Below are positions 11,241-41,866 of a DNA stretch of 41,866 bases, piece by piece. The stretch is from Thermoanaerobaculia bacterium (GTDB lineage Bacteria > Acidobacteriota > Thermoanaerobaculia > Thermoanaerobaculales > Sulfomarinibacteraceae), in contig JAMOVQ010000089.1 of assembly GCA_027067575.1 (NCBI GenBank), positions 1 through 41,866 of the forward strand, written 5' to 3'. The notes below the pieces were generated by a model. That model made no database searches, had not been told where the DNA came from, and was given only the letters and a program-made list of their open reading frames with translations. Position numbers and translations under genes: made by a program. Position 1 is the stretch's first letter. Each line of letters starts with the position of its first letter.

Positions 11241-11418
11241 TCTACATGCATGACGGTCCGCGAAGAACGGCCCGGCGTGGTCAAGACAGTGAACCCTTCC
11301 CGCCTTCCACCCCACTCGCCCATCCACTTAGGGACGGGCGAAGTGATGTCTCGGTTTGCCTCCCACAGACACGGAACCCGGAACCGCCCACGTTCGGGAC
11401 CGTCCCGTCGGCGAAGCA

Positions 11419-11439
11419 CGAGGTAGAGAGTGTCCCTCG
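11419..11439 (+). repeat. GAGAGTGTCCC element copy 1
   Basis: cgagg-tagagagtgtc-cctcg. Confidence 0.5.
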
Positions 11440-11531
11440 CTCTGACCAGCGACGAGCAAAGCGAGGTCCCGGTTGACGATTCAGAGGGCCCCACGCCTCA
11501 ACGAGGGGGACTGTCCGCTCGACCCGGCATG

Positions 11532-11552
11532 AGAAGAGGAGTGTCCCCTTCT
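11532..11552 (+). repeat. GAGTGTCCC element copy 2
   Basis: agaagagg-agtgt-cccc-ttct hairpin (one A/C mismatch). Confidence 0.5.
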
Positions 11553-11598
11553 TCTGCAGGCCCCGTCGAGAGACGAGTCCCTGTGACGCACTCTCGAG

Positions 11599-12966
11599 TC
11601 ATGGGAACATGGGGCGGGCCTCGATCCAGGCGGCATCGTCGGCCGAGCCGTCCACGACGGAGAGCCCCGCCGCCACGCCCCCCGCGTGGACCGTTAGCTC
11701 GACGTACCCCGCCGCGACGTCCCCCGCGCCGAGCGCGTGGGCCACCCGGTTGATCTGCAGGAGGCCGTACGCCGGGACCTCACGGTCCGCCTCGGCGCGG
11801 ACCGTTCCTCCGGCGATGATCCGTATGGTGACCTGGGACGGCATCGGCGCCAGTCCGGCGAGCACGAGGTTCGACCGGAACGCCCCGTGCTCCACAAGCC
11901 CGGGCAGGATCCACGTCTGCTCCAGGTCCAGCGGAGCGATGGTCTGGAGGCCGGGTATGGAGATCCCGAACCTCCGACCCTCGCCGTCGACGGCGTAGTT
12001 CCGGCTGGAGACCTGCACGAACCATCCTGGAACGCCCCCGACGACCAGGGTCCCCTTGACGTTGTCCGTGATGCCGAACGCCGTCTGGAGGACATCGTCC
12101 CACGCGATGGACTCGCCGCCCTCCAGGTCGAACGGAATCGAGGGCGCCCCGTCGAGCGTCCCGCCCTCACGGACGAACCGGACCCACCCGGTGAGCCGGA
12201 ACCCCACCGGATTCGTCAGCGTGAGGTCGGAGACGAACGGCACGCCCGACGCGCCCACGATGTGGCTGGCGACCGGCACGACCTGCCGCGCCCTGGTCCC
12301 GCTGGACTCCAGCACCACCGGCACCGGAACCGCGTCGTCCACGGAGAACGCGAGCAACCGCTCCCCCGCGAGCACGTAGAGCGGGTTGCCGGACCTGAGC
12401 AACGCACTCGAGAGCTCGAAAACCCCGTTCTCCTCCGCGTCGCCGTCCGCCCAGTCACCCTCGGTTAAGCTGCGGTAGGAGGGCCAGTGGCCGGGTCGCA
12501 CGGAAATGAAGTAGCAGGTCTCGCCCGGTTCGAGCCCCCGGAGCGTCACCGTACTGCTCCCGGCCTCGAACCCCTCGACGGTGAACGGCGGGTCCGCCGC
12601 CGCCCTGTCGCCCCCGACGGACAGCACGGCCATCTCGCCGTTCAGGAGATCCATGGCCACCAGGAGGTCGCCCTGACCCACAGGGCTGGAGAGCGCGAGT
12701 TCGAGCTCGGGCACTCTGATCGGCCTGTGGTAGATGTCGTTCCTGAGCGACGACCCGGACCTGTGGAAGTGAACAAACCCGACCATGGCGGCGAACGCCT
12801 CCATCCTCTTCCCCGCCTCCCCGGGGTCCTGCGGGAACGTGTAACCCGAGATCACGACCGACGTGGCGCCCTCGCCGACCGGTGCGATCTCGATCGCCGG
12901 GACCACCGGAACGGCAAGAACGGAGACGCCGAGCGCGCACGACATCGCGGTGAGCCAGTGTTTCAT
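11599..12966 (-). CDS. Secreted hypothetical protein
   Basis: 455-aa ORF with signal peptide (MKHWLTAMSCALGVSVLAVPVVPAIE); C-terminal part resembles repeated 'VASHIVGASGVPFVSDLTLTNP...' modules common in secreted proteins of Acidobacteriota-like genomes. Confidence 0.75.
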   Translation of the reverse strand: MKHWLTAMSCALGVSVLAVPVVPAIEIAPVGEGATSVVISGYTFPQDPGEAGKRMEAFAAMVGFVHFHRSGSSLRNDIYHRPIRVPELELALSSPVGQGDLLVAMDLLNGEMAVLSVGGDRAAADPPFTVEGFEAGSSTVTLRGLEPGETCYFISVRPGHWPSYRSLTEGDWADGDAEENGVFELSSALLRSGNPLYVLAGERLLAFSVDDAVPVPVVLESSGTRARQVVPVASHIVGASGVPFVSDLTLTNPVGFRLTGWVRFVREGGTLDGAPSIPFDLEGGESIAWDDVLQTAFGITDNVKGTLVVGGVPGWFVQVSSRNYAVDGEGRRFGISIPGLQTIAPLDLEQTWILPGLVEHGAFRSNLVLAGLAPMPSQVTIRIIAGGTVRAEADREVPAYGLLQINRVAHALGAGDVAAGYVELTVHAGGVAAGLSVVDGSADDAAWIEARPMFP

Positions 12967-13354
12967 CTCGACCTCCTTGAGTTCGGGACGAGCCTATTCC
13001 CCCGAAGGCGCCGGTGTCAAACCGCGGTGCCGCGTCCCCTGCGGAAGACCTCCTGGACGGACCTCCCCGCCCCGCCACGGGCCACCCGAGGTGAGGCGGC
13101 CGTCAGGGCGTCTCCGGGAGCCCCCCCCGATACCTGGTGCTCGAGCGGACCAACCCGCCGGAAGGCCGTGTCCCGACCGGCCCTCCAGACGGCGGAACGC
13201 ATGGCGGACACGCCGGGCGGTCTCCGCGCACGGCTCTGCTCCCCGGCGGGCCGGGGGGCGCGGGGGCGACCGCGCCGTGAGACCGGCACGGCAACAGGCG
13301 GGCGGCTCGCTCACGTCGAGAAGGAGAGAACGCAGGCGTCCCTCCCTCGAAGGG

Positions 13355-13370
13355 CGGGGAGTGTCCCCCG
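13355..13370 (+). repeat. GAGTGTCCC element copy 3
   Basis: cgggg-agtgtc-ccccg. Confidence 0.5.
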
Positions 13371-13457
13371 GATCCCGGAGAGGGGGGATCAGGAGCGGGT
13401 CTTCCCGGCCGGGACCCCCGAGACGGTGCGGTATGATGGCTCCGTAAGGAGGCAGCC

Positions 13458-13670
13458 ATGGAGATCCCGGGCAAGGTCGCCGTCTACTGTCCGCTGATCG
13501 ATGCCAAGGGCACCGCCGCGAAGCTGATCGCCATCGTGGACGGACACTACCAGCTCGAGACCACGGTCAAGGGCCGGATCCACACCATGTTCCTCCCCGT
13601 CGACCAGACGGCTTTGATCTTCACCGAGCCCGAGCCCGAGCCCGATCCGGAGATGGAGATCGAGCGGTAG
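13458..13670 (+). CDS. Small hypothetical protein (70 aa)
   Basis: MEIPGKVAVYCPLIDAKGTAAKLIAIVDGHYQLETTVKGRIHTMFLPVDQTALIFTEPEPEPDPEMEIER; preceded by aaggaggcagcc RBS. Confidence 0.6.
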   Translation: MEIPGKVAVYCPLIDAKGTAAKLIAIVDGHYQLETTVKGRIHTMFLPVDQTALIFTEPEPEPDPEMEIER

Positions 13671-13765
13671 GGAGGTCAGACCCCGCGGTACGCCCCCACC
13701 GCACGGCGTGACGAACGTGGCCCGCCAATCGGGCGCCGTGGCGGAGAACGTCCTCCCTCGATGAC

Positions 13766-13789
13766 AGAAATAGGGACACTCTCTTTTCT
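13766..13789 (-). repeat. GAGAGTGTCCC element copy 4
   Basis: agaaa-tagggacactctct-tttct (core on minus strand). Confidence 0.5.
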
Positions 13790-13853
13790 CTCCTTGCTGG
13801 CAGCGACGCGAGGCGCACTCCTTCCTCTCCCTCGCAAGCGCGCCTCTTTTTGG

Positions 13854-13890
13854 CCCGCACGAAATAGAGAGTGTCCCTTTCTCGTGCGGG
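13854..13890 (+). repeat. GAGAGTGTCCC element copy 5
   Basis: cccgcacga-aatagagagtgtccctttc-tcgtgcggg, 9-bp perfect arms. Confidence 0.6.
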
Positions 13891-13908
13891 GAGGTGTGCG
13901 AAGCGCGG

Positions 13909-13932
13909 GGAAGAGAAAGAGAGTGTCCCTTC
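13909..13932 (+). repeat. GAGAGTGTCCC element copy 6 (weak arms)
   Basis: gaagagaaagagagtgtcccttc. Confidence 0.4.
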
Positions 13933-28029: not shown

Positions 28030-28105
28030 GCTGGCGTAGCTCAATTGGTAGAGCAGCTGATTTGTAATCAGCAGGTTACGGGTTCGAGTCCCCTCGCCAG
28101 CTCCA
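28030..28105 (+). tRNA. tRNA-Thr (TGT), CCA encoded
   Basis: gctggcg acceptor with cgccagc, tttgtaa anticodon loop, ggttcgagtcc T arm. Confidence 0.97.
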
Positions 28106-28130
28106 GTGGAGACCCGGGAGTCGTAAGGAT

Positions 28131-28217
28131 GCAGGGGTTGCCGAGCGGTCAAAGGCAGCAGACTGTAAATCTGCCGGCGTAACGCCTACGGTGGTTCGAA
28201 TCCACCCCCCTGCACCA
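28131..28217 (+). tRNA. tRNA-Tyr (GTA), CCA encoded, long variable arm
   Basis: gcagggg...cccctgc, ctgtaaa loop, 87 nt. Confidence 0.96.
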
Positions 28218-28240
28218 TGGTCATGGTGAATCGAGCGGTT

Positions 28241-28316
28241 GCGGGAGTAACTCAGCTGGTAGAGTCACGGCCTTCCAAGCCGTTGGTCGCGGGTTCGAGT
28301 CCCGTCTCCCGCTCCA
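28241..28316 (+). tRNA. tRNA-Gly (TCC), CCA encoded
   Basis: gcgggag...ctcccgc, cttccaa loop. Confidence 0.97.
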
Positions 28317-28344
28317 GCAGAAGGTCCGGAACGGAAGCGGATGG

Positions 28345-28420
28345 GCCCACGTAGCTCAGCCGGTAGAGCACGTCCTTGGTAAGGACGGGGTCACCAGTTC
28401 AAGTCTGGTCGTGGGCTCCA
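28345..28420 (+). tRNA. tRNA-Thr (GGT), CCA encoded
   Basis: gcccacg...cgtgggc, ttggtaa loop. Confidence 0.97.
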
Positions 28421-28491
28421 TTCTTCGGCAACCACGGGGCGTCCGTCACCTCGCGGGCGCGATGACCCGAAACGAACAGAGGGAGGCAAGG

Positions 28492-29685
<1,194 letters not shown>

Positions 29686-29691
29686 CATCAC

Positions 29692-29841
29692 ATGCCCAGA
29701 GACATCGTCCACCTCCAGTGCACCGAGTGCAAGCGGCGCAACTACACTGCGACGCGCAACAAGCGGAAGCAGACGTCGAAGCTGCAGCTCAAGAAGTACT
29801 GCCGCTTCTGCCGCCGGCACACCCTGCACAAAGAGGTCTAA
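29692..29841 (+). CDS. rpmG: 50S ribosomal protein L33, zinc-ribbon (4-Cys) form; absent from the ORF track because only 49 aa
   Basis: Manual translation [49 protein letters not shown]. Confidence 0.95.
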
Positions 29842-29856
29842 CATGAGCGGAAGTGC

Positions 29857-29932
29857 AGGCCAGTAGCTCAATTGGTAGAGTCCCGGTCTCCAAAACCGGT
29901 TGTTGGGGGTTCGAGTCCCTCCTGGCCTGCCA
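29857..29932 (+). tRNA. tRNA-Trp (CCA), CCA encoded
   Basis: aggccag...ctggcct, ctccaaa anticodon loop. Confidence 0.96.
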
Positions 29933-41537: not shown

Positions 41538-41866
41538 TGGCAGCTTGTTGCGCGCTCCGGCTGCCACCGGCAGCCTGGCGTGCGGCCAACCGGCGGCCGG
41601 CCCCCGCGCTTCGCGCGGGCTGCGCGCCTCGCCCGCGCGTCCCGGTGGGAGCGAGCTCCCCCCGGGCCGCCCGTGCGACGCGCTGGCGCCGCCTCCGGCG
41701 TCGCTGCCGGCCGCCTGGGCTTCGTTGGAGGGCGTTCGGGTCATCGACTTTGAATGAACGGGGCCGCGAGTCTCGCACCCCGGGACCGCCCCCGCCGCGG
41801 CCGCTTCGTCGTCACGACCGCCAGGTCAGTTTCTCCTCGCGCCCTTGCGGGAACGGCCCCGGGGCA

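Follow-up and report, generated by a model that had tools for sequence, protein, structure and literature searches.

Six exact matches to the pattern GAGTGTCCC are found in the window, the whole stretch of 41,866 nucleotides that was analyzed, whereas a shuffle control gave a mean of 0.84 and no shuffle gave six (Table 1). All six are intergenic according to a purpose-written simple codon-usage gene caller. The initial annotation, which had described at least six intergenic copies of a constant core within arms that change from copy to copy, was therefore correct in number and location, but it did not mention that the core GGGAGTGTCCC is itself a small palindrome, GGGA-GTG-TCCC. The remainder of the window includes five tRNA genes followed by a run of short genes on the same strand (28030–29929).

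Table 1. Repeat copies and associated features in the window
Feature	Position	Strand	Basis or remark
GAGTGTCCC core, copy 1, AGAGAGTGTCCCT subtype	11428..11436	+	Exact match; intergenic
Outer pentamer of copy 1, TCGCT	11437–11441		Outside target consensus
GAGTGTCCC core, copy 2	11539..11547	+	Exact match; intergenic
Outer pentamer of copy 2, CTTCT	11548–11552		Matches YWWNT
GAGTGTCCC core, copy 3, GGGGAGTGTCCCC subtype	13359..13367	+	Exact match; intergenic
Outer pentamer of copy 3, CCGGA			Outside target consensus
Left outer pentamer of mini-element, AAATA (AWWWA); putative target site	13768..13772	+	Sequence
GAGTGTCCC core, copy 4, reads GGGACACTC on + strand; left end of outward-facing pair	13773..13781	-	Exact match; pair orientation in the genome (14 outward/2 inward)
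Putative 105-bp non-autonomous mini-element with two outward-facing ends	13773..13877		Orientation and flanking pentamers compared with element ends
9-bp distal arms CCCGCACGA/TCGTGCGGG around copy 5	13854–13889		
GAGTGTCCC core, copy 5; right end of outward-facing pair	13869..13877	+	Exact match
Right outer pentamer of mini-element, TTTCT (YWWNT)	13878..13882	+	Sequence; family footprint
GAGTGTCCC core, copy 6, AGAGAGTGTCCCT subtype; outer pentamer TTCGT	13921..13929	+	Exact match; intergenic

The genome (3.08 Mb in 191 contigs, 100% complete, roughly 69.5% G+C) contains 159 copies of GAGTGTCCC compared with three of a reversed control pattern, and both orientations are equally common (77/82). 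Genomic context was determined for 131 of the 159 copies, taken from 620 kb of stretches. Of these, 106 (81%) are wholly intergenic, although intergenic DNA makes up 13% of the bases; the corresponding value for permuted 9-mers was 8%. The counts in sixty relatives were at or near background, and the amplification of GAGTGTCCC is accordingly specific to the window's genome. The commonest arrangement is the direct array (72 close pairs), and close opposite-strand pairs were outward-facing in 14 cases and inward-facing in two. Copies with common inner flanks diverge directly after the core.

TIR-associated tyrosine transposases (TIRYTs or TIRtrons) possess terminal repeats with GGGGWSAS and form moderately abundant repeat families (PMC3733652). 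They constitute subclass 2.1 of TnpAY1 (PMC6006769), and a C-terminal HTH/DnaA-C-like domain has been reported for part of this subclass without being defining for TIRYTs. As the initial annotation had stated, no transposase gene is present in the window; Y1/HUH genes are located elsewhere in the genome. A profile search with PF01797 returned four Y1 genes and a full-length protein search 24 transposase matches, most of them cut off by contig ends, which is the expected effect of a recent multicopy element on a short-read assembly. All aligned copies show the signature NHYH and YVELNP. Pfam gives Y1_Tnp only, above the cut-off, and no DnaA-C-type C-terminal domain was found in the transposase; the match to the profile of REP-associated tyrosine transposases (REP_Tyr_transpos) was below the cut-off, and PF08299 matches were confined to the genome's single other locus. 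No match was obtained in a sequence search of the PDB, and a single-sequence structure prediction of a TIRYT was unusable (pLDDT 37.5). A single relative emerged from a scan of named genomes, a MAG of the Acidobacteriota with a protein of 61% identity, and the phylum was assigned on this basis as probably Acidobacteriota.

The transposase genes carry GGGACACT[C/G] upstream, oriented inward, and of the genes whose 3' end was sequenced most have AGTGTCCC or a near variant downstream, oriented outward; the first G of the GGGGWSAS-type repeat is often A in this genome. The AGAGAGTGTCCCT form in the window matches the C127 copy of the TIRYT at its right end, and the pentamer AAATA next to the putative mini-element also adjoins transposase-element ends at loci L154, L163, and L169. 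A Y1 transposase flanked by the motif was thus found, with the motif as its outward-facing terminal repeats. The REP-like origin proposed at first was right with regard to Y1 (HUH) genes whose ends carry the motif, but these belong to the TIRYT branch rather than to the GTAG-type REPs. Taken together, these results support a link between the repeats and a TIRYT/class-2 Y1/HUH transposase of the same genome.

To judge the mobility of the transposase element, we consider its ends. Thirteen TIRYT 5' ends have a mutual identity of 91–99% (median 96.5%), while in the 1.2 kb outside 14 left ends no similarity between any two was observed. In all 14 left ends both the base adjoining GGGACACTG and the fifth base out are A; the pentamer is AWWWA in 13 and fits A[AT][ATC][AT]A in every case, compared with an AWWWA background of 0.0011 per intergenic position (p about 7e-38 for the left-end count). 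The presence of AWWWA at 13 of 14 left ends with unrelated flanks therefore points to insertion 3' of a retained short target, as in IS200/IS605. Near-identical ends at unrelated sites next to a pentamer are strong evidence at the sequence level that the element is mobile, and it appears to be a little-studied single-strand-DNA element with many recent copies that inserts next to a 5-nt A/T-rich site. In a second subtype, GGGACACTC (C97, C112, C165, and C182), the inner ends are identical within the subtype and the sites differ. The right boundary of the element is less clear than the left: one pair of copies, on contigs C53 and C175, diverges 4 nt past the core, and others differ before that point.

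The footprint can also be followed in the dispersed repeats. Outward of the CAGTGTCCC-family core, the A/T content is.65,.88,.78,.61, and.86 at the first five positions and.29 at the sixth, while the corresponding values for the GAGTGTCCC core are.35,.81,.60,.40, and.56, again with.29 at the sixth. The footprint at GAGTGTCCC copies is thus weaker than that at transposase-element ends, and it is absent from many copies, including two of the six in the window. These data support the view that the dispersed copies share the marks of element ends, namely intergenic location, the 5-nt A/T footprint, and outward-facing close pairs.

In other genomes of the phylum, an inward-oriented GGGACA was found within 300 bp upstream of 22 of 26 TIRYT genes, compared with about 0.19 per 300 bp elsewhere, and a downstream GGGACA had the outward form in 11 of 20 genes and the opposite form in none of the 20. 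The bases after GGGACA vary by lineage, each of which amplifies its own version matching its own transposases: GGGACAGTCTG in family f33 and GGGACAGGCTG in family f61 (66 copies vs. 7 for the control in genome G202), neither of which is amplified in the window's genome. The 5-nt footprint outside the core recurs in both of these lineages, and positions -2/+2 in f33 are T/A in some subfamilies and A/T in others. In G202, on a single contig (loci L129–L141), GGGACAGGCTG forms long arrays in which every one of the 35 close pairs is direct, with a spacing of commonly 33–60 bp, an arrangement beyond what simple two-ended transposition explains. The GC skew of G202, considered in view of a possible replication-strand bias, was too flat for placing the origin and terminus.

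The complementarity of the arms was assessed in 102 intergenic copies with inner and outer flanks re-paired between copies as the null. Since the core can fold as GGGA-GTG-TCCC, two registers were tested. With the 9-nt core as the loop and position -i set against +i, which is the register of the initial annotation, an excess of pairing was observed (z = 5.8), and it persisted after stratifying by the inner two (4.5) or the inner three bases (2.6, p = 0.0055), whereas the signal in neighboring registers was gone in the strictest strata. The hairpin centered on GTG, in which only the pair next to GGGA/TCCC covaries (z ∼4), was weaker and was rejected. At least four of five arm positions were paired in 15 copies compared with 4.9 expected, and the window copies taken one by one have two to four of the five adjacent positions paired. 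The complementarity reaches only ∼5–7 bp from the core: arms of at least 7 bp within 32 nt were not in excess (8 observed vs. 7.1 expected), and the mean longest arm was likewise at chance level (p = 0.08). The copy-specific self-complementary arms described at first are therefore real next to the core, but at chance level as long stems.

Distal inverted arms were nevertheless noted in single copies: 9 bp at C7:3427 and around copy 5 in the window, 8 bp at C133:25789 and C142:82176, and 7 bp at C98:34560. Because long arms are not above chance, the 9-bp arms in the window are an exception and not the family rule; the 8–9 bp arms of these four copies possibly reflect chance or a rare separate process.

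We consider it likely that these copies represent the terminal repeats of a mobile TIRYT Y1/HUH transposon, present as solo ends, direct arrays, and short two-ended mini-elements, with the outer arm as the target pentamer and the inner arm as a putative guide. On single-stranded DNA, TnpA would bind the constant core, GGGACA[N3-5]. A T-rich inner arm (the guide, e.g., TTTTT) would then pair with the outer pentamer over the constant loop; the analogy is with IS608, which reads its target through base pairing to a guide located in its own end (PMC5934647). The outer pentamer would serve as both cleavage and target site; a cut on its 3' side and strand transfer would move whole elements, and the same strand transfer could move lone ends, as proposed for REP systems. 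The copy-specific arms would thus represent guide-target pairing across a constant loop and not inherited stems. A guide that is constant within a subfamily predicts its targets, as is seen for the AAAAA guides, whose targets have T at +1 and +5 and more T than A at +2 to +4, and across subfamilies the model predicts the arm covariation that was observed. Guide-target pairing in TIRYT ends, drawn from the IS608 analogy, is plausible but unproven, because no significant covariation was found within G202 alone; in the genomes other than G202, subfamily structure inflates the covariation z. The fuller proposal is that a class-2 TIRYT functions as an autonomous transposon whose inverted ends are symmetrical, that each end has a guide of its own pairing with a 5-nt target across a constant GGGACA-N3-5 loop, and that this one mechanism accounts for the mobile element and for hundreds of solo ends with arms differing from copy to copy, in several lineages of the phylum. 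We regard this as tentative, with the chances slightly against it, and the 72 direct close pairs count against simple two-ended transposition as the full account.

Alternatively, the dispersed copies could be passive remnants of decayed or deleted full TIRYT elements, with solo ends that were never mobile and a complementarity that is a relic of terminal repeat and target preference, involving no guide pairing. The multicopy state of the full elements and the loss of the target footprint from many copies are in line with this, and so is the short, A/T-dominated complementarity, since an A/T target beside an A/T-rich inner arm could yield much of the signal. However, the register with the 9-nt loop survives stratified permutation, the dispersed copies far exceed the transposase matches (159 vs. 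24), and regular arrays have formed, also in G202. On balance, an origin as passive remnants appears unlikely.

The repeats could also be kept by selection as RNA hairpins, serving for intrinsic termination, attenuation, or processing, or else as operators, in either case with no present mobility. Some copies resemble a stem with a T-run (AAAGGGAGTGTCCCTTTTTC), and the arms covary. Within tandem gene pairs (G000), the motif is directed against transcription in 17 regions and along it in 7, which points the same way and is possibly a replication-strand effect. Against this, the split of the copy-bearing regions among divergent, tandem, and convergent gene pairs (15/27/7) is much like that of intergenic regions overall (59/141/41), neither orientation prevails in the genome, and the family is confined to the window's genome and matches its transposase ends. 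Intrinsic terminators and operators were rejected on the grounds of this near-background gene context, and we consider selection as RNA hairpins or operators very unlikely. Insertion of a short module into the loop of pre-existing hairpins with stems older than the core, as the initial annotation had envisaged and as the few copies with 7–9 bp arms might suggest, is hardly credible and was rejected, since long arms occur at chance level and near-identical element ends lie at sites with nothing but a pentamer in common.

Returning to the terminal repeats of a mobile TIRYT, the system fits the TIRYT/TIRtron description: a class-2 Y1/HUH protein (HUH and Y---NP, here NHYH and YVELNP) is encoded by a gene flanked by terminal inverted repeats of the GGGGACA type, and members of the repeat family are scattered elsewhere singly, in pairs, and in groups. 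It differs in that the elements are multicopy and near-identical at many sites, a pentamer next to the end is defined, inner and outer arms covary, the C-terminal DnaA-C-type domain is lacking by Pfam, and the core is often AGGGACAC instead of GGGGACAC. Set beside Quentin et al., the present element is unusually direct evidence that a transposase of the TIRYT class moves.

With REP/RAYT (TnpAREP) systems and REPINs it shares short, clustered intergenic repeats with hairpin potential around a class-2 Y1 gene, and a repeat and transposase that are matched lineage by lineage. REPs, however, are defined by a 5' GT[AG]G foot next to the stem, and neither GTAG nor GTGG was found in the conserved core or the adjacent consensus. 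In addition, the loop or core is constant here and the arms are variable, and the repeats are the inverted ends of the transposase gene, with close opposite pairs facing outward. The likeness to IS200/IS605 (IS608, ISDra2) lies in the Y1/HUH chemistry, assigned by homology, and in insertion 3' of a short target of fixed length kept in the left flank; pairing of the target with an end-borne guide, as proposed here, would be a further parallel. In contrast to these elements, the protein is class-2 Y---NP and not class-1 Y---Q, the ends are symmetrical and inverted instead of two unlike subterminal hairpins, and the target is a degenerate AWWWA instead of a fixed TTAC-type sequence. How such repeats spread is an old question. 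In this genome a TIRYT is present in many copies, its left ends and a pentamer target are defined, and a dispersed repeat family accompanies it, so that the spread of the repeats, including possible guide pairing of the IS608 type, becomes directly testable.

A larger repeat was also observed. Positions 41576–41866 of the window are part of an intergenic repeat of ∼830 bp that occurs with 85–95% identity on at least 17 contigs, with full copies at, e.g., L040:7449-8281 (C12) and L049:15454-16451 (C103), and the window's contig ends inside it. It is built of internal units of ∼135 bp, each of which contains a second palindromic repeat, GGGACGAGCGRAGCGAYGTCCCGG (L040:7449-7480 and similar); a degenerate relic of the latter lies at 11299–11368, just upstream of the first copy in the window. 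Rfam gave no match for the larger repeat and only tRNAs in the window, and a known RNA family was therefore rejected as its identity. As several of its copies end at GAGTGTCCC or CAGTGTCCC, the ∼830-bp repeat may be carried by the TIRYT system as a large passenger.
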